Below, piece after piece: positions 26,481 to 37,915 of a stretch of 37,989 nucleotides of DNA. A program made the translations under genes and the position numbers. The notes below the pieces were generated by a model. The model was not told the origin of the DNA. It saw nothing but the letters and a program-made list of their open reading frames with translations, and searched no databases. The stretch covers positions 1 to 37,989 of IMG/VR virus record IMGVR_UViG_3300026116_000536. The stretch is one strand, 5' to 3'. The DNA is from a virus. Positions within the stretch are counted from its first letter, which is position 1; the number at the start of each line of letters is the position of its first letter.

Positions 26481-26711
26481 TCACTTGCTCCGGCGTCGAT
26501 GGGCCATTTCGCGACGGATACCGGACAGCTCGCCGGCGATGGCGAGCAGGGCCAGCCCAATGGCCTGCCCCAGGCCGGTGTCGCTTTCCGGATCGCCCTC
26601 ATTCGAACTGGCCCAGGTGCTGAGCAATCCGTGTGCCTGGCGGGCCAGGTCTTCCGGATCGAGCCGCTCGGTCGCCGCGAACGGCCGCCCGTCGTCAGGA
26701 CTCGTCGGCAC
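26481..26711 (-). CDS. Small hypothetical protein
   Basis: A 76-residue protein from a GTG that lies 17 bases inside the end of the glycosyltransferase gene. Helical (PEDLARQAHGLLSTWAS; GQAIGLALLAIAGELSGIRREMAHRRR). It sits between the fusion glycosyltransferase and the gp10-like gene and may be a small head-tail factor. No family recognised. Confidence 0.6.
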   Translation of the reverse strand: MPTSPDDGRPFAATERLDPEDLARQAHGLLSTWASSNEGDPESDTGLGQAIGLALLAIAGELSGIRREMAHRRRSK

Positions 26712-27873
26712 GATGCGCCGCCATGTACTGATCGACGAGCGCCTGCGGGAGCCGGCCGCGGGCGCTGTGCTCGATGCCCTGACCGTCGAGCCAAGCGCGG
26801 ATGATCGCCGCTTCCGGCTGCTCCGCGATCTCGACGCTCGGCGCGGCCGCCGGCGTATCGCCCGCGCCACTGTCCAGCTCGACGACCGGCGAGCTGACCG
26901 GAGCCGCCTGCTCGGCGGCCGGCACTCCGGGGAAGTTCAGCACCAGCGGAGTCCAGAGCCGCGGGTAGTCGGTCACCACCGAGCTCGTCTTGTGGGCGGT
27001 CGTCTGCCCGCGGCGCACCGTGTACCGGCGCCGGCCCACGTAGACGATGGCGTTCTTTGCGGCCATCATGATGTCCGTTTCGACCATGCCCAGACTCCCG
27101 TCGTCACCCGCGCGGCGAGCCGCGGCGAGCGGGTTGTACCGCGGCGCCGGCGCGCGGCGATTCTCGTACCGCGATGGTACGGGAAACCGGTCCCGGATAT
27201 CGCGTCCCACCTGACCGCGCTCGAAAGCGCGCTGACTGGTCGACAGGTACGGCCACTCCGCGCGCCATTCGGTGGGATCCCCGTGGTGGACCTTGACGTC
27301 ACAGTGCCGAGCTCCGCCCAGGCGCGCGAGGTTGCCGTACACGGTGCGGATGTAGAACGGGTCTACCCCCTCGTACATCTGCAGCGCCGCGGCCGCCCGC
27401 GCCCGGTCCATCATCATCGGGACGTGCAGCTCGTAGCTGTACAGGCGACCGCCCAGCCTATGCGCGCGCATCACCTGGGCGGTCGCGCGCATGCCCGCGC
27501 GGCAGACACCGGAGCCGTACCGCTTGATCTGCTCGTCCGTGGTGCCGGCGTGCCAGACAGGGAAGCCGTCGGGGCCCACCGGCCGCATGAGGTAGAAATC
27601 GTCATTCATCAGTAGGAATTGCTCGGGCGGGCCAGCCGGGCCGTAGCCCCGCGGCTCGAGCGCAGCCCGGAAGTTGTCGAGCGCGCGGCGCCACTTGCTC
27701 TGTCCGATCGCCTTGACTGGAACGTGCTCGACTCCCGTCAGCCATTCCGGACAGTAGCCGGCGACGATCACCCGGCCATGATCCGGGAGGTTCGTCTCGA
27801 GCGAGCGGAGCGAGTACCGGAGCTCTTCGTTGCGCGGCTCCGCGGCGACGTAATAGACGACGTCCACGCTCAC
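26695..27873 (-). CDS. Stealth-type glycosyltransferase fused to Lsr2-like domain
   Basis: A 392-residue protein. Residues 1 to about 225 resemble Stealth-family sugar-phosphate transferases: VDVVYYVAAEPRNEELRYSL at the start, FLLMNDDFYLMRPV with NDD at 90-92, and the later VHHGDPTEWR. Residues about 271-315 (VYVGRRRYTVRRGQTTAH...YPRLWTPL) resemble a short module of actinophage head proteins. Residues about 357-387 (IIRAWLDGQGIEHSARGRLP) match the Lsr2 C-terminal DNA-binding pattern. It may glycosylate virion proteins or the cell surface. GTGA-coupled to the head-tail joining gene. Confidence 0.7.
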   Translation of the reverse strand: MSVDVVYYVAAEPRNEELRYSLRSLETNLPDHGRVIVAGYCPEWLTGVEHVPVKAIGQSKWRRALDNFRAALEPRGYGPAGPPEQFLLMNDDFYLMRPVGPDGFPVWHAGTTDEQIKRYGSGVCRAGMRATAQVMRAHRLGGRLYSYELHVPMMMDRARAAAALQMYEGVDPFYIRTVYGNLARLGGARHCDVKVHHGDPTEWRAEWPYLSTSQRAFERGQVGRDIRDRFPVPSRYENRRAPAPRYNPLAAARRAGDDGSLGMVETDIMMAAKNAIVYVGRRRYTVRRGQTTAHKTSSVVTDYPRLWTPLVLNFPGVPAAEQAAPVSSPVVELDSGAGDTPAAAPSVEIAEQPEAAIIRAWLDGQGIEHSARGRLPQALVDQYMAAHRADES

Positions 27874-28963: not shown

Positions 28964-30358
28964 TTAGTTTGCGATCAGCGTAACCGGCTCGACGCCAGCG
29001 TTGAGCGTGACGGCCGCGGCGCCGGCGAGCAGCGCCGGGGGAAGGTCTCCCGGCTCGAGCACTCCGGGGATGACCTCGCCCAGGAATATCGGCGAGCTCG
29101 CCGCGTGCGCGTGCGCGGCCACGGCCGCGACGAGTTCGTACGTCTGGCCGAGCACGGGCGCCCCGGCCGCCTGGCCGTGCGCCGCGCTGGCGGCCGCGAG
29201 CGTATGGTCCTGGACGAGCGCCGGGACCCCGGCGCTCTGCGCGTGAGCGGCCGCCTGGGCGGTCAGCGCGTGCCCCTGAGTCAACGTCGGCGAGGCGGCC
29301 GTGTGCGCGTGGGCGGCGTCGGCTACCTGCAGCTCTTGAATCACGCTCGGCGAGCTCGCCGCGTGCGCGTGGGCGGCCGCGGCCGCGGCGAGCTCGTGCT
29401 CTTGGGTCAGCGTCGGCGAGGCGGCCGCGTGCGCGTGGGCGGCCGCGGCCGCGGCGAGCTCGTGCTCTTGGGTCAGCGTCGGCGAGGCGGCCGTGTGCGC
29501 GTGGGCGGCCGCGGCCGCGGCGAGCTCGTGCTCTTGGGTCAGCGTCGGCGAGGCGGCCGTGTGCGCGTGGGCGGCGTCCGCGGCGACGAGATCTGTCGCG
29601 CTCGACAGCTCGCGGATCCGGAACCAGACCGTCGAGCCGGCCCAGTTGGCGATCGCCCCCGTCGCGGACATGGTGACGTCGGGCCCGCCGGACGCGGTGC
29701 CCGCAGTGATCGGGATGGTGTCGACTACCCAGGCGCCATCGTTACCGGTTGTGGTCTGCACAAGCGCCCGGTTGACCGCGGTGCCCAGCGTGCAGCCGGC
29801 GACGGCGTAGGTCGCCGGCACGGTGATGGTGCCCGCTTCGTCATTGATGAAATGGCAGGCGACGAGCCAGTCACCCGCCTGTAGGTCGAGCACAACGGCC
29901 GCGGCCGCCGGATCGTACGGCGAGCCGGCCGACGTGTCGCCAGAGACCGCACAGGTGGGCGCGGCCCAGGTCTTCCCGGCGTCCTTCGTGAAACCGAGGA
30001 GCTGGGCGATGGTCGGGTTGCCCGCGGCAGACAGGTCGATACCGGGAGACGTGTCGCCGGACTGCCACTCTCGGTAGAACCCAGTCGTCCGCGTCTGTCC
30101 GCCCGTGCTCGCGCCCCCGGCCCCAGTGCCACCAGTCCCGGAGTTGCTGGCCGGAGCGGTGTACGTGTCTCCGGTGATCGCCGAAACGGTGGGCGCCGCG
30201 CCGGATGAAATCCCCTTGGACCCGACGGCAAGCAAATTGAGGTCGCCGGCCGCATTGCCGGTCGGCATCGCGGAGCACGTGGCCGGGTCGATCGCCGCGG
30301 AGATACCCGCGGCGCCGGAGAGCGCGCCGGCCGCCCGGAATCCGATCGTCACGTGCAC
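28964..30358 (-). CDS. Virion repeat protein with Ala-His repeats
   Basis: A 464-residue protein. The first 250 residues are beta-rich and Gly/Thr/Ala-rich (YREWQSGDTSPGIDLSAAG; VPATYAVAGC), like phage head or tail surface proteins. Residues 257-430 hold eight repeats of about 22 residues with the core AAHAHTAASPTLTQEHEL. The tail (LPPALLAGAAAVTLNAGVEPV) may anchor it. Repeat arrays of this type occur in phage virion proteins; a head fibre or decoration role is inferred from its place between capsid and adaptor genes. Confidence 0.65.
   Translation of the reverse strand: MHVTIGFRAAGALSGAAGISAAIDPATCSAMPTGNAAGDLNLLAVGSKGISSGAAPTVSAITGDTYTAPASNSGTGGTGAGGASTGGQTRTTGFYREWQSGDTSPGIDLSAAGNPTIAQLLGFTKDAGKTWAAPTCAVSGDTSAGSPYDPAAAAVVLDLQAGDWLVACHFINDEAGTITVPATYAVAGCTLGTAVNRALVQTTTGNDGAWVVDTIPITAGTASGGPDVTMSATGAIANWAGSTVWFRIRELSSATDLVAADAAHAHTAASPTLTQEHELAAAAAAHAHTAASPTLTQEHELAAAAAAHAHAAASPTLTQEHELAAAAAAHAHAASSPSVIQELQVADAAHAHTAASPTLTQGHALTAQAAAHAQSAGVPALVQDHTLAAASAAHGQAAGAPVLGQTYELVAAVAAHAHAASSPIFLGEVIPGVLEPGDLPPALLAGAAAVTLNAGVEPVTLIAN
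29069..29590 (-). repeat. 66-bp tandem repeat array inside coding sequence
   Basis: Eight units, the three or four nearest the right side almost identical at the base level with a period of exactly 66 bp (for example at 29365-29575), the others diverged. One unit is shortened to 20 residues. Near identity implies recent expansion or ongoing unequal recombination. Confidence 0.85.
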
Positions 30359-31074: not shown

Positions 31075-31974
31075 TCAGCTCGAGGCGGTGTCCATCACGA
31101 ACGCGCGGACGTAGACGGGGTCGCCGGACTCGCTCGTGTCGTTCTCCTGTACGACCGCGGCACCGGCGAAGGTCGAGATCACCGTGGCGTCGGACAGCTT
31201 GTCCGGAACGTAGTGGAAGATCTGCCGCATACCGATCCCGCCGCTCTCCGCGGTGGCGGAGTCGTTCACGCCGCGGGGCACCACGGGGACGCGGTTCGTG
31301 AAGACGAAACCGGACTTGTGGTAGGCGACCGCGCGGCCGGCCGCGAGGCCGGCTGACTCGACGACCGTGAATCCGCGCCAGCGACCGATGATCGCCTCAC
31401 GGAGCGCGGTCGGTGAGCCGCTCGCGTCGACCCGAGTGAACTCGTCCTGATTCAGTACGAAGGTCGCGACCTCCGGGGACACCGCGAGGAACCGGTTATC
31501 CAGCGGAACGAGCGCGCGGCCCAGCGTCTGGCGGGCGATCAACACGACATCGTTGATGTTGGCACCGGTCGGGTCGAGCTCGCCCTCGGCGCTCATCGCC
31601 AGCGCGTTCATGGTCGCGGCGAGCAGATTCTCGGCGCGGGTGGCGACCGCCTCGACCTGCGGGAGGGTGATCTGCCGCGCGAAGTTCTCCAGGGTGTAGG
31701 TGAGCTCCTGGTCACTGACGAGCTTGGCGTGGTACAGGTGCTCGAGGGTCACGTCGACCGGTACCTCAGTGAGGTCGTCGTACGTGATCGTGTCACCGGG
31801 GTTGGTCTGGGTACGCGCCGTGGTCGGCTGAGGTACCCGAACGGTGATGGTGTCGCCGTTGTGGCCGGAGAACTCCGGGCCCGGGACACGCGCGACGGTC
31901 ATGGGCAGAACGAGCGTGCGGGTCAGCAGCTCGATCGCCAGCTGAGAAATGCCTTTCGCGGTCAGAACGGCCAC
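31075..31974 (-). CDS. Major capsid protein
   Basis: A 299-residue protein. Pattern of the P22 coat/HK97-fold capsids of actinophages: ELLTRTLVLPMTVARVPG, FSGHNGDTITVRVPQPTTAR, LEHLYHAKLVSDQELTYTLENF. AAGGGAG precedes the GTG start by 9 bases. It follows the scaffold gene and is followed by an attenuator, both expected for a capsid gene. Confidence 0.85.
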   Translation of the reverse strand: MAVLTAKGISQLAIELLTRTLVLPMTVARVPGPEFSGHNGDTITVRVPQPTTARTQTNPGDTITYDDLTEVPVDVTLEHLYHAKLVSDQELTYTLENFARQITLPQVEAVATRAENLLAATMNALAMSAEGELDPTGANINDVVLIARQTLGRALVPLDNRFLAVSPEVATFVLNQDEFTRVDASGSPTALREAIIGRWRGFTVVESAGLAAGRAVAYHKSGFVFTNRVPVVPRGVNDSATAESGGIGMRQIFHYVPDKLSDATVISTFAGAAVVQENDTSESGDPVYVRAFVMDTASS

Positions 31975-32021: not shown

Positions 32022-32666
32022 TCAGAGGCCCTTAAGGATGTCCTCCGCCAGCTTGGCGTGATCGACCTGATCCGTCCCGCCGGCCGCCGGTACGGCGCCT
32101 GACGTCAGGTTGTCCCGCGGGCGGGTGCCGAGCAACGACTTGCCCGCTCCACCCTTCGCGTCCTCCGTGCCCGCGGCGCCCTTGCCCGCGTCCCCCTTGC
32201 CGTCGCCCTTACCCGCGTCGCCCCCGGTCGCACCCTTGCCGTCACCGTTGCCCGCGTCGCCCCCGGCCGCACCCTTGCCGTCACTCCCCGCGCCCGACGG
32301 CTTCATGTCCTCGAGGAGTTCCTTCGCGTCCGCCACGAGCTCCTCGCGGGTCTTGCCCTGCAACCGCCGCGCCTGCCGCGGCGTGAGCTTGTGCTCCGCG
32401 GCGACCTCGGCGATGAGCGCCGCGTGCTCAGCCTTTTCGGTGCGAGCCTTCATCTCGGCCAGCTGCTCGATCACCTTGTCGAGCTTGTCCTTGTCCTTGT
32501 CCGCGGCCGCGGCCTTCGCCTTGAGGTCGTCGTAATCGGCGTACTTCCCGCGCTCCCGCGCAAGCCGGGCGTCAATCAGTCGATCAAGGTCAGCCTGCGT
32601 GAACTTGCGATCGTCGGTCGCCGTGCTGCCCGCGGCGCCAGCGCCCGCAGTCGTGTCGTCAGCCAT
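32022..32666 (-). CDS. Capsid scaffolding protein
   Basis: A 214-residue charged protein: FTQADLDRLIDARLARERGKYADYDDLKAKAAAADKDKDK is a typical scaffold coiled coil, followed by a helical region (LTPRQARRLQGKTREELVADAKELLEDM), a low-complexity Gly/Ala/Lys/Asp repeat (DGKGAAGGDAGNGDGKGATG) and a C-terminal helix that binds capsid in relatives. Directs capsid assembly and is then lost. Confidence 0.85.
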   Translation of the reverse strand: MADDTTAGAGAAGSTATDDRKFTQADLDRLIDARLARERGKYADYDDLKAKAAAADKDKDKLDKVIEQLAEMKARTEKAEHAALIAEVAAEHKLTPRQARRLQGKTREELVADAKELLEDMKPSGAGSDGKGAAGGDAGNGDGKGATGGDAGKGDGKGDAGKGAAGTEDAKGGAGKSLLGTRPRDNLTSGAVPAAGGTDQVDHAKLAEDILKGL

Positions 32667-32758: not shown

Positions 32759-32986
32759 TCATTCCCGCGTGATCATAACGTACCCGTTTGACCACCCACC
32801 GCTCAGCAGTGAATCCCAGACCTGATCAGCGGTCCGGCGTCCGCTCGGCGTGCGCGCGATGCTGTCCATCAGTCCGACCGCGGCGCCGGACTCGACGACC
32901 GGGCCGTCGCCATCGCGCTCGAGCGCACCGATTTCCTCACCCGGCTCGCCCTCGCCGACCACCCGTCGGAGAATCAGCCTAACCAT
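32759..32986 (-). CDS. Small hypothetical protein
   Basis: A 75-residue protein starting at the ATG that overlaps the MuF-kinase stop by 8 bases. Begins MVRLILRRVVGEGEPGEE and is alpha/beta with DSIARTPSGRRTADQVW. Between minor head and scaffold genes; function unknown. Confidence 0.6.
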   Translation of the reverse strand: MVRLILRRVVGEGEPGEEIGALERDGDGPVVESGAAVGLMDSIARTPSGRRTADQVWDSLLSGGWSNGYVMITRE

Positions 32987-34010
32987 AGATGCCCTCACCG
33001 GTGCCGGTTGGAAGAATGTCGAGCATTCTCAGCGTCCAGTCTAGCCAGGCGCCGCGGCCAATCTTGACGAAATCCGGGCGGAGCTTTTCGAGCCGCTCGC
33101 GGATGATCTCGACGTCGCGCCGGGAGAGCAACCGCCGAGCGAGCACCCTCGAGGAGAATGGGTTGTCCTCGGTGCGGGCCGGGATCTCCATCGGCTGGTC
33201 GACATGACCCGCCTCGCGCCGCGCCTTGAACTCGTCGAGCCGCCGGAAATACCAACTCTGTCCGTGGTCGATACCGACCAGCCGCCCGGCCACGTCGGCG
33301 AGCCAGTTCCGGTCACTGCGATCGAGGTTGCCGACGAGCATGTCGAGGACACCCAACCGGTGACCCTCTGGGGAGTCGATCAGCGACGGGTCGCCGGCGT
33401 TCTCCGTGTCGCGGACGTGCTCCATCCACACCGCGGTTTTCTCGGCGCGGTACACCCGGGCCACCGGCGCCTCGAGCGCCTGGGCTACCAGCGCGGTCAG
33501 CTGCTCCGCGTCGGCTTGCTCGAGCACGTCGTTGTCATCGCCGAAGTTGTGCGCCCGCTTCTTAATGATCGTCCTGCGATCGAGCAGCGTTAGTACCTGT
33601 ACCTCAGCCGACTCGCCGCCCATGAGCCGGCGCTTTCCGGCCACACTGCCAGGACGGAGCGTGATCTCCTCGACGATCGCGGCGAGATCCTCCAGCCCGA
33701 CCGTCGAGCGGTGGAACTTAGCGGCTCCGCCGGACGCCTTGCCGCCGGCCGCCTGAGCTCGGCGGAACGCGTTGAGCGCGTTCTTTCCGGACAGCCCGCG
33801 GGTCGACCGGTCCCAGAGCTCGCGCAGCGCGATGACGTCGGGCGGCTCTTGCTCGCCGGCGTGAAAGATGGGTTCCGCCGAGCAGGTGCACCCGTCGTGC
33901 GCTTCGAAGTTGGCGCCACGCTTGCTGTAGACACCGCCCCTGCTGGCCAGCATCTGACAGAACGCGCACGCTCCCCCGCTTGCCACCCGCCGGAAGCCCT
34001 TGACCGACAC
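32979..34010 (-). CDS. MuF C-terminal part fused to kinase-like domain
   Basis: A 343-residue protein. Residues 1-50 are the C-terminal MuF/minor head motif: GFRRVASGGACAFCQMLASR with C15 and C18, then HDGCTCSAEP with H38, C41 and C43. Residues about 130-290 resemble an ATP-grasping PI3K/HipA-type kinase: RTIIKK (K150/K151), VWMEHV hinge, GNLDRSDRNW (D220, N225) and GIDHGQSW (D238). The last 50 residues are helical. MuF proteins enter the virion with the head and may be injected, so the kinase could act in the host. The GTG start follows the stop of the gene at 34013 by 2 bases. Confidence 0.7.
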   Translation of the reverse strand: MSVKGFRRVASGGACAFCQMLASRGGVYSKRGANFEAHDGCTCSAEPIFHAGEQEPPDVIALRELWDRSTRGLSGKNALNAFRRAQAAGGKASGGAAKFHRSTVGLEDLAAIVEEITLRPGSVAGKRRLMGGESAEVQVLTLLDRRTIIKKRAHNFGDDNDVLEQADAEQLTALVAQALEAPVARVYRAEKTAVWMEHVRDTENAGDPSLIDSPEGHRLGVLDMLVGNLDRSDRNWLADVAGRLVGIDHGQSWYFRRLDEFKARREAGHVDQPMEIPARTEDNPFSSRVLARRLLSRRDVEIIRERLEKLRPDFVKIGRGAWLDWTLRMLDILPTGTGEGIYG

Positions 34011-34012
34011 GG

Positions 34013-34465
34013 CTACCGCCCGGCCGCCATGGTGCCCACGACGGTATCGCGGTCGCCGGCGAGGATGAGCCGCTGAACTGAGCGGATGGTTGCCGCGGAC
34101 ATGGCTCGCCTGGCCACGTCCGGCGAGCCGGTGCGACGCAGGGTGCTCATGAACGTCGCGACGCTGGCCACGAAGAGCGAGTTACGCATGGCCTCGATGT
34201 CGAGCGGCGCCGGCAACGGGTCCACGGTCCCGCGGGCCACGCGCGCGCTCTCGCGCAGGTAGCGCACGGACAGCGTGACCGCGGCCCGGTGCCCGGCCGC
34301 CACGATCGACTCCACTCGCCGCCCGCCGCGGCCCGTCCACCATGCCTCGATGGCCGCGACGTCGGCTGTCCGCATGACCTGACCGGTCGCCCGCGCGGCG
34401 AGCTGGGTCAACATGGCGAGGTTGCCGCGGTGCCGATGGGTCAGCTCACGCGCTCTCGTCACCAT
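34013..34465 (-). CDS. MuF N-terminal part, minor head protein
   Basis: A 150-residue helical protein overlapping the portal gene by 20 bases. LARAIEAW-like helices (TADVAAIEAWWTGRGG; LSVRYLRESARVARG; RLILAGDRDTVVGTM) match the N-terminal half of actinophage MuF/capsid maturation proteins, which normally continue straight into the GWxRV...CAFC segment now encoded by the next gene in another frame. Termination-reinitiation or a frameshift could link the two. Confidence 0.7.
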   Translation of the reverse strand: MVTRARELTHRHRGNLAMLTQLAARATGQVMRTADVAAIEAWWTGRGGRRVESIVAAGHRAAVTLSVRYLRESARVARGTVDPLPAPLDIEAMRNSLFVASVATFMSTLRRTGSPDVARRAMSAATIRSVQRLILAGDRDTVVGTMAAGR

Positions 34466-35831
34466 CGAGTGCCCCGTTCAGCTTGGCGACGAGATCAGCC
34501 GCGGCCTTCGCGTCGCGCCACCGGTCGACGTCCTGCTGGGTAACGCCGGGGATCTTCGCCCAGAGCTCCTCCACCGGAACCTCAAGCATCTGCGCCAGCT
34601 TGCCCAGACCGTCAACGGTCGCCGCGAACGCGCGCGCGGAGCTGTCCTGCCAGATAACCTCCGCGTCGACCGGGACGGGTACCCCGATCAGTGCCCCAAC
34701 CACGCTGAGCGACTGCTCGTGAGACTCGCCGAAACCGGTCTTCCGCTCTTTGATCTTGCGATCGTGCCCGGCCTCCGCGGCCGCCAGCGCTTCCGCGGCC
34801 ATGTTGATCAGCTCGCCGGAGAGCTCGTGTACCGGGGTCTGGCTCAGCGTCGCGGCGAACCGCATCGTTGAAATCCGCGAGCTGAGGAATCCGTCGAGAG
34901 GGGTGTCCGAAAACTCCCCTAGCTTTATATTCTCCGGATCATCCTCGAATGTCCACAGTTGCGATGATGCGGCCTTCATCTTCTCGGTGCGATCGCTCGG
35001 CGTCCAGCCGATGGCCCAGCGCTGGCGGAACGCGCCGTACCATTCCGCGGCCTTGAGACTAAAGCTCGTCAGGTTGATCGCGTCCTGCAGCGACATCATC
35101 GGCGCGACCTGTCCGGCCAACAGGGTGCACGGCTCCGGGGCGTGTCTCGAGCCCAGCCCCCCGACGGGAATGTCGTCGTCGAGATCGAGGTCTTCCGCGT
35201 CGCGGTACCGCACGATCGGCGCGTATCCCAGTTCGTGCGGGGTGGCGCCGCGGAACACGAGATCTCCGCCGTCCATGCCGAACTGGTAGATCCCCTCGCT
35301 GTCATACAGGAGCCAGTCCCGCGCGGCTGGCCGCTTCTCGAGCGCGAGCACGGGCCAGTCAGGATCCGCGCCGTACTGAGCGGTCAGCAGGCGCGGCGAG
35401 GCCGGCCGCATCACGGGCCCGGGATCGCCTGGCGTGATCGCCATGTACGCCGTGCCGTACGCGCACGCCGCGCGGTGAAGCCCGTTCTGCCCGCGGTCCA
35501 TCCGGTTGCCCTGCCACACCCTCCACACGGGAGCGAGCGGATCCTCCGGCACGCCCTCACCCTCGGCCGGCGAGGTGAGCTCGCTCGCTGGCGAGCGGAG
35601 ACCATCGACGAAAAGCCCCTGCGCCAGCGACTGCACGATGAGATCGATCACGTTGATCCGGGACACCCGGGCCATGGCCCGGACCTCTACCGGCGCGTCC
35701 TCCGGGATGGTGGCCGGAAAGGGTTGCTTGCCCTTCCAGTAGGCGCGGATCACGTCGAGCTGGCCGCGCTCGTCCTGCAGCGTCCTGCGCAAACCCACGG
35801 CCGCCTCGAGCGCGGCACTCTCCGTCAGCAC
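34446..35831 (-). CDS. Portal protein (SPP1 gp6-like)
   Basis: A 461-residue protein: YWKGKQPFPATIPEDAP, INVIDLIVQSLAQGLFVDGL, YGADPDWPVLALEKRP and a late SDRTEKMKAASSQLWTFE segment are characteristic of Gp6-type portals. It forms the dodecameric DNA channel at the head vertex. GTG start one base after the large terminase stop. Confidence 0.88.
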   Translation of the reverse strand: MLTESAALEAAVGLRRTLQDERGQLDVIRAYWKGKQPFPATIPEDAPVEVRAMARVSRINVIDLIVQSLAQGLFVDGLRSPASELTSPAEGEGVPEDPLAPVWRVWQGNRMDRGQNGLHRAACAYGTAYMAITPGDPGPVMRPASPRLLTAQYGADPDWPVLALEKRPAARDWLLYDSEGIYQFGMDGGDLVFRGATPHELGYAPIVRYRDAEDLDLDDDIPVGGLGSRHAPEPCTLLAGQVAPMMSLQDAINLTSFSLKAAEWYGAFRQRWAIGWTPSDRTEKMKAASSQLWTFEDDPENIKLGEFSDTPLDGFLSSRISTMRFAATLSQTPVHELSGELINMAAEALAAAEAGHDRKIKERKTGFGESHEQSLSVVGALIGVPVPVDAEVIWQDSSARAFAATVDGLGKLAQMLEVPVEELWAKIPGVTQQDVDRWRDAKAAADLVAKLNGALDGDESA

Positions 35832-35832
35832 G

Positions 35833-37467
35833 TCAGAAAACCGCCTTCCCGCTACGGCGTCGTTTCTTCCAGGCGCGCGACGCGAGCACCAGCCTACGCA
35901 CCAGCCGAACCCCCACGACGCAGGCCGCGGCGTCGATCTTATGCGGCGAGGCGGGAGATTCCTTCCGGATCGACAGACCGAACCGGTTGGGATCGTTCCG
36001 CGCCGCGGTCACGTGCCGTGTGGTCGCCGCGTTCCCGTCGTGAGTAAACCCCCCATCGGCGATCTCCGCGGCGGTCAGCTCGCAGGCCACCGTGAAGTCG
36101 TACACATGGGTACGCATGTCCCACGCAATCTTTTGCGGATTCTTCCCACCCGGCACCGCGTGCACCATCAGGTCATCACCGAAGAGCTCGGGCCAGGCTA
36201 CCTGTACGTACGACTCCCATTCGCGGACGTCTCCAAAGAATCCCGCGACGCGCCAGCGCTCACGCGCGCGCCTGACCGCCAGATCGACCACCGCGGGGTT
36301 GACGTCGTGCTTCATCAGCAGGGGTTCCCACACGCCGATGGTGAACACGTGCCCGGTCTCGATGACGCATCCGAGGAGCGCGGTGGAGTCGGCCGATTTC
36401 GACCCGTCGAAAAACATCGCGATGTACTCTTTGTCGGGTACGACTGTACCCGACGCCGCGAGGTCGCTCCATTGCTCCGGCTCAACCCAGGCGTCTTCCG
36501 CCACGCTTGGCCGGTTTCCGTACTTACGCTTGGAGTCGGACAGTTTCGACTTTGGCGAGTAGATCCGACCCATAATACTGTCGATATCCTGCCAAAATGA
36601 GTCCTGGTATATCCGCTCGAGCTCGGCCCGAACCTGCTCGGGCTGGTACCAGTCGAGGTCCGGCCGGCTCACGATGGCGTCGTACAGAATGCGCCCGGAT
36701 TCCGGGATCAGTTGGTCGCTCTCCTGCAGTACCCAGGCATCCCAGGTCTCCTCCGCGACGCTTCCCTGCCCCGGCGTCCAGGCATTGTTGGTCTCGACCA
36801 TCCGCGAACTCGATTTGGCGAGATTGTCCAGGAGCGTCGCGCTCAGGTCGTCGCCACCGTTGTTGGGTTTCCAGTGCTCGGTCTCGTCGGCGATGATGAG
36901 CGACGGCTCCGCGCCCTCCGCGGCGGTCGCGCTCGACGTGATGACCTCGAGCGTGCCCTCCGGAAGCCGGTAGTACCGCGTCTTGCCGGGGTCGAGCTTA
37001 TACTTGTCGACGATCGGCGAGCCTTTCGGCGCGAATGCGCGCACCATCCGCATGGTATTTCCGGTCTGACTCTCGGCCGTCGCCGCTATCTGTACCAATG
37101 GCATATTGACCGGTTGGCCGATCACCAGTCGTCTCTTGTGGTCGATGTCCTTCACCCGCGTCGGACCGCAGAACTCGCCCAGCCCGAGCACGGCGACGAA
37201 AGGCGACTTCCCCGACCCCTTCGCCAGGCGCCGCGCGCCATGCTGGAAGAGCCAGCGACCCTCATCGTCGACCGCGTACCACCAGAACAGATACCGCAGC
37301 TGCCGCGGGGTGTACCGAAACAGCTGCCCCGCGCGGGGGCCGTTGGGTTGGATCAGCGTCGACTCCGCCCAGCGCGCCACGCTCGGGCCGAGCGTGAGCA
37401 CGGAGCCGTCGAACGGGAATGGCGGGAGGGTGTCGAGGCGGTCAGCCGGCGCGACCGCGGTATTCAT
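35833..37467 (-). CDS. Terminase large subunit
   Basis: A 544-residue packaging motor. ATPase: Walker A-like AKGSGKS at 82-88 and Walker B IIADETEHW with D194/E195. Nuclease: acidic residues D354 (MFFDGSKSAD), D413 (FFGDVREWE) and D512 (PHKIDAAAC) in the RNase H-like arrangement. It cuts concatemeric DNA at the ends and pumps it into the head. Overlaps the small terminase gene by 26 bases. Confidence 0.92.
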   Translation of the reverse strand: MNTAVAPADRLDTLPPFPFDGSVLTLGPSVARWAESTLIQPNGPRAGQLFRYTPRQLRYLFWWYAVDDEGRWLFQHGARRLAKGSGKSPFVAVLGLGEFCGPTRVKDIDHKRRLVIGQPVNMPLVQIAATAESQTGNTMRMVRAFAPKGSPIVDKYKLDPGKTRYYRLPEGTLEVITSSATAAEGAEPSLIIADETEHWKPNNGGDDLSATLLDNLAKSSSRMVETNNAWTPGQGSVAEETWDAWVLQESDQLIPESGRILYDAIVSRPDLDWYQPEQVRAELERIYQDSFWQDIDSIMGRIYSPKSKLSDSKRKYGNRPSVAEDAWVEPEQWSDLAASGTVVPDKEYIAMFFDGSKSADSTALLGCVIETGHVFTIGVWEPLLMKHDVNPAVVDLAVRRARERWRVAGFFGDVREWESYVQVAWPELFGDDLMVHAVPGGKNPQKIAWDMRTHVYDFTVACELTAAEIADGGFTHDGNAATTRHVTAARNDPNRFGLSIRKESPASPHKIDAAACVVGVRLVRRLVLASRAWKKRRRSGKAVF

Positions 37468-37915
37468 TGATGTCCGGCACGCCGTCGGGAAGCTCGGGCA
37501 GCTTCTGGTCGCCCTTGGCGAGCTCGATGCGGAGCCGGCGACGGTCGCCCTCGGTGGCGAGGAGTGCGGTACACGCCTTCAGGAACGCCTGCACGCTGGC
37601 GCCGGTGACCTGCTGACGGGCCAGCGTCGGTACGCCGGTGGCCAGGTCGACGCCGTGCACCGTGGGCAGGAGGTCGCGACTCATGACGTCGGCAATGAAG
37701 TACGCGGTCGCCCAGTCACTCTGTTGGTAGCGCACGCTCTGGCCGGACTGGGCGAGGGCGTCGTACCACTGAATGGCGGTCGGGTGCCAGGTCTCGTCTG
37801 CCGGGTACGGAGCGGCCGGCCGGCGCTCGATATCCTTATCGATAGGTATCTCTGGCTGGTTCGCGCGGCGCCGCTGGTCGCTCGGCGTGGGCACTGGCCC
37901 CGGTATCCCTGACAC
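37442..37915 (-). CDS. Terminase small subunit
   Basis: A 157-residue protein starting at GTG with AAAGAGG 7 bases upstream. It begins SGIPGPVPTPSDQRRRANQP, the usual opening of actinophage small terminases, and has helical oligomerisation segments (ASVQAFLKACTALLATEGDRRRLRIELAK). It recognises the packaging site, here expected in the adjacent end sequence. Confidence 0.8.
   Translation of the reverse strand: MSGIPGPVPTPSDQRRRANQPEIPIDKDIERRPAAPYPADETWHPTAIQWYDALAQSGQSVRYQQSDWATAYFIADVMSRDLLPTVHGVDLATGVPTLARQQVTGASVQAFLKACTALLATEGDRRRLRIELAKGDQKLPELPDGVPDINEYRGRAG

Follow-up and report, generated by a model that had tools for sequence, protein, structure and literature searches.

The window analysed here is the whole of a 37,989-nucleotide stretch, positions 1 to 37,989 of IMG/VR virus record IMGVR_UViG_3300026116_000536, a linear contig. 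On its minus strand, within the head gene cluster, an open reading frame (ORF) at 32979-34010 joins the C-terminal portion of a minor head protein of the MuF type to a domain for which sequence, conservation and predicted structure support a PI3K/HipA-like kinase fold. This ORF is followed by a gene for a protein of 75 amino acids (aa), hereafter the partner (WSNGY family). Kinase and partner were strictly coupled genetically and, judging from pairwise sequence identities, swap jointly between MuF backbones. The features of the locus are as follows.

34013..34465, minus strand: N-terminal part (150 aa) of a VG15-type MuF minor head protein; ORF with a TAG stop at 34015-34013
32979..34010, minus strand: ORF of 343 aa with a GTG start, holding the MuF C-terminus and the kinase domain
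33810..33998, minus strand: MuF C-terminal cysteine motif, residues 5-67 (CAFCQMLASRGGVYSK...AHDGCTCSAEPIF); Pfam VG15, E 1.1e-15
32982..33716, minus strand: HipA/PI4K-like kinase domain, residues 99-343, from an AlphaFold2 model, structural matches and 37% identity to phage pMLP1
33558..33560, minus strand: K151, ATP-binding lysine, invariant in 24/24 homologs
33321..33323, minus strand: D230, catalytic aspartate of LDRSDRN, invariant in 24/24 homologs
33306..33308, minus strand: N235, catalytic-loop metal ligand, invariant in 24/24 homologs
33267..33269, minus strand: D248 of IDHG, metal ligand, invariant in 24/24 homologs
32759..32986, minus strand: 75-aa partner (WSNGY family) with a predicted HipS/HipA N-subdomain-1-like fold; its first 8 nucleotides overlap the end of the kinase ORF, stop codon included

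The initial annotation of this DNA had described a MuF head protein fused to a kinase. Both components were recovered, the MuF C-terminus through VG15 and phrog_193 (E 3.5e-22) and the kinase through its fold, although the N-terminal part of MuF lies outside the ORF. The added domain, given there as about 160 residues, covers about 245 aa. The kinase motifs that it named are present and are not due to chance, as K151, E169, D230, N235, D248 and H249 were invariant in 24 aligned domains (including the window) drawn from IMG/VR viruses and the Micromonospora phage pMLP1; its residue numbers D220, N225 and D238 were 10 too low and correspond to D230, N235 and D248. As far as sequence can tell, the active site looks intact. 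Identity to the window kinase ranged from 24 to 37% in a 19-sequence alignment. The ratio of non-synonymous to synonymous substitution rates (dN/dS) between two of the loci, L028 and L029, was 0.35 for the kinase and 0.19 for the partner, which suggests purifying selection on both.

Profile searches with the window ORF gave a match to PI3_PI4_kinase (PF00454) at residues 217-252 (E 7e-5) with 23.3-23.9 bits, below the Pfam gathering cut-off of 27.1, and a weak match to NCBIfam TIGR03843, and no HipA family matched at E ≤ 1. The pMLP1 kinase and several other relatives scored above the PI3_PI4_kinase cut-off, and one (L020) matched HipA_2 at 4e-4, under the cut-off. Alignment to E. coli HipA by hhalign was not significant. 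Fourteen of 19 kinase domains matched phrog_3162 (best E 5.6e-11), a PHROGs family whose function is unlabelled.

Structure prediction and comparison with HipA and PI3/4-kinases, the check that the initial annotation had proposed, returned a kinase fold. The AlphaFold2 model, built from seven sequences, had a predicted local distance difference test score (pLDDT) of 77.5 and a predicted template modelling score of 0.79, with a poor stretch at 154-185, and retained helices 186-234, i.e. the helical C-terminal lobe. VIA-align placed PI4KIIalpha first (Z 13.3, root-mean-square deviation (rmsd) 3.7, 216 residues) and CtkA second (Z 12.9, 211 residues), followed by HipA (4pu5; Z 9.6, rmsd 4.1, 191 residues) and then RIO kinases near 9. 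RIO kinases headed the Foldseek list (E 4e-7). Comparable folds in BFVD belonged to large proteins from Gordonia and Mycobacterium phages and from haloarchaeal tailed viruses; one of these proteins carries an ADP-ribosyltransferase annotation. The haloarchaeal examples included R4T6E8 and L7TJZ0 (viruses HHTV-1 and HSTV-2; Foldseek E 1.5e-8 and 1.6e-5).

Among annotated phages, the lone full relative of the kinase was found in pMLP1 of Micromonospora carbonacea (37% over 235 aa, tblastn). This unannotated protein of 647 aa combines Phage_min_cap2 (E 1.7e-75) with the kinase, and its gene lies between portal and scaffold/capsid genes. Further loci (L numbers) were obtained from IMG/VR searches. 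At least three unrelated types of MuF backbone carry the kinase domain: VG15 (L010, L016 and L031 above the cut-off, L028 and L029 below), Phage_min_cap2 (pMLP1, L017) and Phage_Mu_F (L004, L005, L021 and, weakly, L020). A fusion containing a portal (L012) also bears it, as do large proteins (L004, L005, L013, L018, L019) that possess ADP-ribosyltransferase, 2H phosphoesterase, peptidoglycan-binding or second kinase domains. MuF, 2H phosphoesterase and kinase share one chain in L004 and L005, the latter also with a Pfam-scored ADP-ribosyltransferase. No match to the kinase domain was found by tblastn of plasmids, no relative by two pattern scans of genome contigs, and none with the window portal as query.

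Two of these proteins have additional features. The single open frame L005:4632-9320 encodes MuF, 2H phosphoesterase, ADP-ribosyltransferase and kinase and, by eye, a second ADP-ribosyltransferase-like C-terminus, and the 1734-aa MuF/2H/kinase protein of L004 (4185-9389) contains an intein-like insertion within its MuF domain (Pfam Intein_splicing, E 5.7e-5, below cut-off). Recurring linker motifs, e.g. RDxxGRWT/RDxxGRFT and PGKHDQSSHGKGG, preceded effector domains in L006, L013, L015, L019, L021 and L022, and are possible packaging or protease-processing signals.

The conserved partner gene at 32759-32986 had been overlooked in the initial annotation. Its family, in which the WSNG motif was invariant among homologs, matched no Pfam or PHROG family. 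In 21 measured pairs the partner gene followed the kinase gene, 17 of them overlapping by 4, 8 or 11 nucleotides. The remainder comprised one 2-nucleotide gap and three gaps of 119-280 nucleotides, all of the latter in loci where the kinase is followed by a further domain in its protein. When IMG/VR was searched with the partner family alone, eight loci were recovered, and the kinase was directly upstream in 8/8; three were the query's own contigs, two were near-identical, and four were new and independent. The gene order is the same in Streptomyces phages phiScoe15 and phiScoe55, where the MuF gene is short and is immediately followed by the scaffold gene; both kinase and partner are lacking. 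In Arthrobacter phage TforTroy, a VG15-like MuF bears an ADP-ribosyltransferase, and the partner position is taken by another small ORF. We therefore rejected a general head gene as the simplest reading of WSNGY, because kinase-less MuF phages of the same gene order lack it and the blind WSNGY search gave kinase loci only.

The small ORF of TforTroy (gp5, L033:5593-5952, 120 aa), which follows the MuF-ADP-ribosyltransferase gene at the position taken elsewhere by WSNGY, may be the immunity gene of that enzyme. At L006:7365-11588, two kinase proteins alternate in an operon with two WSNGY-headed proteins, one of which is a WSNGY-ADP-ribosyltransferase. A distant kinase, gp82 of phage Pumpernickel (profile E 1e-23), has no adjacent WSNGY gene, so the kinase/WSNGY pairing belongs to the present clade. 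The match in Acinetobacter phage qsb1 (profile E 2e-8) is a protein on its own, in a different context.

Exchange was measured through pairwise identities of head part, kinase and partner. The head parts of pMLP1 and L017 were 78% identical, compared to 39% for their kinases and 38% for their partners, whilst pMLP1 and L010 had head parts without meaningful similarity and kinases and partners at 58% and 59%. The same pattern linked L017 and L016 (no meaningful similarity between head parts; kinases 70%, partners 55%), and its converse linked L010 and L016 (head parts 60%, kinases 41%). Each of two MuF types was found with each of two cassettes, which makes four pairings. Between L028 and L029, kinases (92%) and partners (94%) were likewise closer than head parts (54%). 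Joint swapping is the behaviour of the toxin-immunity cassettes of polymorphic toxins, and the idea of a polymorphic MuF effector, raised by the initial annotation, is backed by these swaps and by the dedicated downstream gene.

The idea of a HipS-like inhibitor preceded prediction of the partner's structure. When the AlphaFold2 model of the partner (pLDDT 89.9) was compared with 996 chains by VIA-align, the six best were all HipA N-subdomain 1 or HipS (Z 4.0-5.0, rmsd 3.3-3.6, 64-67 of 75 residues, 17-23% identity) and the first unrelated chain reached Z 3.2. HipS is the antitoxin of HipBST and blocks HipT via a tryptophan inserted near the Gly-rich loop (PMC10627512). The tryptophan of WSNG is at most a candidate counterpart of Trp65 of HipS.

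Given that kinase and partner swap jointly and that the model of the partner resembles HipS, the pair has the look of an injected toxin with its immunity protein, and it probably constitutes an exchangeable MuF effector cassette of an injected HipT-like kinase and a HipS-like immunity protein. Given the role of HipS as HipT antitoxin and the HipS-like predicted fold, we propose that an injected kinase is made alongside a partner that protects its producer. The MuF part, which belongs to a kind of minor head protein presumed to enter the host with the DNA, would put one or a few copies within the capsid beside the portal, and the C-terminal kinase would enter the new host cell along with the DNA, where it would phosphorylate a host target, by analogy with HipA/HipT most likely a protein. 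The partner gene would be translated through the kinase stop codon, the HipS-like partner would bind and silence the kinase in the virion-assembling cell, and injection would deliver the kinase free of its inhibitor. In its most specific form this would be a virion-delivered split HipA system, with a HipT-like kinase packed on MuF, a HipS-like antitoxin left behind in the producer, a toxin freed by injection and a cassette that passes between unrelated phages as a unit; we consider this quite possible, though would stop short of calling it probable.

An injected kinase could also serve the phage as an early counter-defence or take-over enzyme that modifies host defence, transcription or translation proteins, like Alt of phage T4, with the partner restraining it until injection. 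The delivery logic would be the same as that of Alt (ADP-ribosylation) and of polyvalent proteins (PMC5512222), ADP-ribosyltransferase and 2H domains co-occur with the kinase, and the contig yielded no integrase, whereas a toxin/immunity pair is slightly favoured by the way in which kinase and partner have diversified jointly. This explanation is possible and we hold it tentatively; it differs from the toxin/immunity cassette in purpose only (help to the phage versus harm to the cell), and the present data fit both.

Several observations weigh against the toxin/immunity cassette. The chief one, which bears on a purely cell-retained immunity protein, is that the partner module forms the N-terminus of a longer protein (with ADP-ribosyltransferase, MuF-like, GNAT or HD domains) in L006, L019, L021 and L022; in these loci the partner may itself be packaged, unlike an immunity protein that stays in the cell. 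No partner was found within 380 nucleotides downstream in L007 and L008. The likeness to HipS is confined to the fold with modest Z (at most 5.0), Foldseek returned nothing significant for the partner (best E 1.0; HipA absent from the first 50), and homology of WSNGY to HipA N-subdomain 1 was undetectable by sequence, as hhalign and hidden Markov model scores were no better than those of shuffles and 0/20 partner records matched Couple_hipA (PF13657). For these reasons we treat the likeness as a fold-level lead and not as membership. Temperate phages are the sole reported source of MuF toxins (PMC5576092), and neither integrase nor resolvase was found within this contig, which need not be the whole genome. 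Finally, MuF is split over two frames in the window, where the TAG of the 34013-34465 ORF is followed 2 nucleotides on by the GTG of the kinase ORF.

This frame break is also what would be expected if the window copy were inactive or decaying, either a pseudogene or a pseudokinase retained as a structural domain. In the five VG15-MuF relatives (L010, L016, L028, L029 and L031) MuF and kinase form a single frame, and alignment with these showed that the two halves in the window are contiguous, with no residues missing at the junction. A programmed -1 frameshift was unsupported, as the 57-codon overlap of the MuF frames contains no strict X XXY YYZ slippery heptamer. The break at 34013/34010 may reflect an assembly error of one base, a genuine mutation or a coupled restart at the GTG. 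The first and last of these would explain it without decay, both the kinase frame and the partner gene that overlaps it are intact, the six catalytic residues are invariant in the window as in its homologs, and purifying selection was apparent between L028 and L029. Decay is therefore very unlikely.

The position of the pair suggests another alternative. The head cluster is ordered small terminase, large terminase, portal, MuF, kinase ORF, 75-aa gene, scaffold and major capsid protein, and the genes on either side of the MuF-kinase-partner segment are as follows.

37442..37915, minus strand: terminase small subunit (Pfam Terminase_7, E 2e-36)
35833..37467, minus strand: terminase large subunit (phrog_9, E 1.8e-49)
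34446..35831, minus strand: portal protein (phrog_104, E 7e-85; SPP1_portal)
32022..32666, minus strand: head scaffolding protein (phrog_4638, E 5e-20)
31075..31974, minus strand: major capsid protein (phrog_283, E 1e-34; Pfam P22_CoatProtein, E 1.8e-9)

Location between portal and scaffold genes would suit a morphogenetic kinase that phosphorylates scaffold, capsid or portal in the assembling phage, with the partner as cofactor or chaperone, and so would the fusion of the partner, in four loci, to a larger protein that is probably part of the virion. However, both genes are exchanged between unrelated head proteins, phages of the same head gene order manage without either, and the kinase shares a polypeptide with the effector domains ADP-ribosyltransferase and 2H phosphoesterase. 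We consider a morphogenetic role unlikely; action on virion proteins, which the initial annotation had offered as an alternative, is conceivable.

MuF polymorphic toxins are a described kind of effector (PMC5576092; PMC3482391), in which a MuF head protein bears a C-terminal enzymatic extension, is followed by a small ORF for a putative immunity protein, and has its effector swapped between MuF types (PMC5576092). The locus analysed here corresponds in each respect, with a MuF domain in the head cluster between portal and scaffold (its N-terminal half in another frame), an extension of 245 aa (≥100 aa), exchange of backbones and a downstream ORF of <150 aa. It differs in that the present family occurs in uncultured phages and one named actinobacterial phage, with a dedicated HipS-like partner. 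The activities reported for MuF toxins are mostly nucleases, peptidases, ADP-ribosyltransferases and RelA-like enzymes, and the word 'kinase' is absent from the main text of that study (PMC5576092). The kind of effector is thus already known, and a kinase of the present type was not found among its listed activities.

HipBST and HipA share with the present system a HipA-like kinase fold and a small, separate protein with the predicted fold of HipS/HipA N-subdomain 1. Unlike them, the kinase here precedes the partner and is fused to a capsid protein, not part of a chromosomal toxin-antitoxin module; PF13657 is not matched, and the neighbours of the kinase are MuF, partner, scaffold and major capsid protein, with no adjacent gene for a HipB helix-turn-helix protein. 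H. pylori CtkA and type II PI4-kinases, the top two fold matches, have the D-x5-N and DHG/DFG-like motifs in common with the window kinase. CtkA is, in addition, a delivered bacterial Ser/Thr kinase, but it relies on type IV secretion, works inside gastric epithelial cells (PMC5536186) and has no MuF, whilst the difference from PI4-kinases lies in the below-cut-off PI3_PI4_kinase score of the window. Polyvalent proteins, multidomain proteins that mobile elements inject, also include kinase domains, and MuF fusions with zeta-toxin-like kinases have been reported (PMC5512222). Their protein-kinase group lacks the C-terminal subdomain, which it has lost, and is found mainly in Verrucomicrobia-Chlamydia and Bacteroidetes prophages (PMC5512222), whereas the present domain retains a helical C-terminal lobe, with 216 residues aligned to PI4KIIalpha. 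No description of a MuF-HipA/PI3K protein or of an injected virion kinase was found in the open-access literature.

If the toxin/immunity cassette is correct, phosphorylation by a HipA-type kinase would join the activities that phages inject inside head proteins, and MuF effectors would be linked to HipA-type persistence kinases. It would also give a likely function to the unlabelled phrog_3162, for which a predicted fold, context and partner are provided here, and to the undescribed small WSNGY family. The proposal offers a testable statement of how a phage could make a virion protein that is toxic while sparing the cell that produces it, and pMLP1 is a named phage in which the idea can be tried.

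Two further proteins of the window have distinctive sequence features. Between the capsid and tail genes, 28964-30358 (minus strand) encodes a 464-aa protein with several imperfect copies of a repeat of ~20 residues (AAAAAHAHTAASPTLTQEHEL). The 392-aa protein encoded at 26695-27873 (minus strand) ends in 40 residues that match phrog_1223, an Lsr2-like DNA-binding family (E 1.7e-5).
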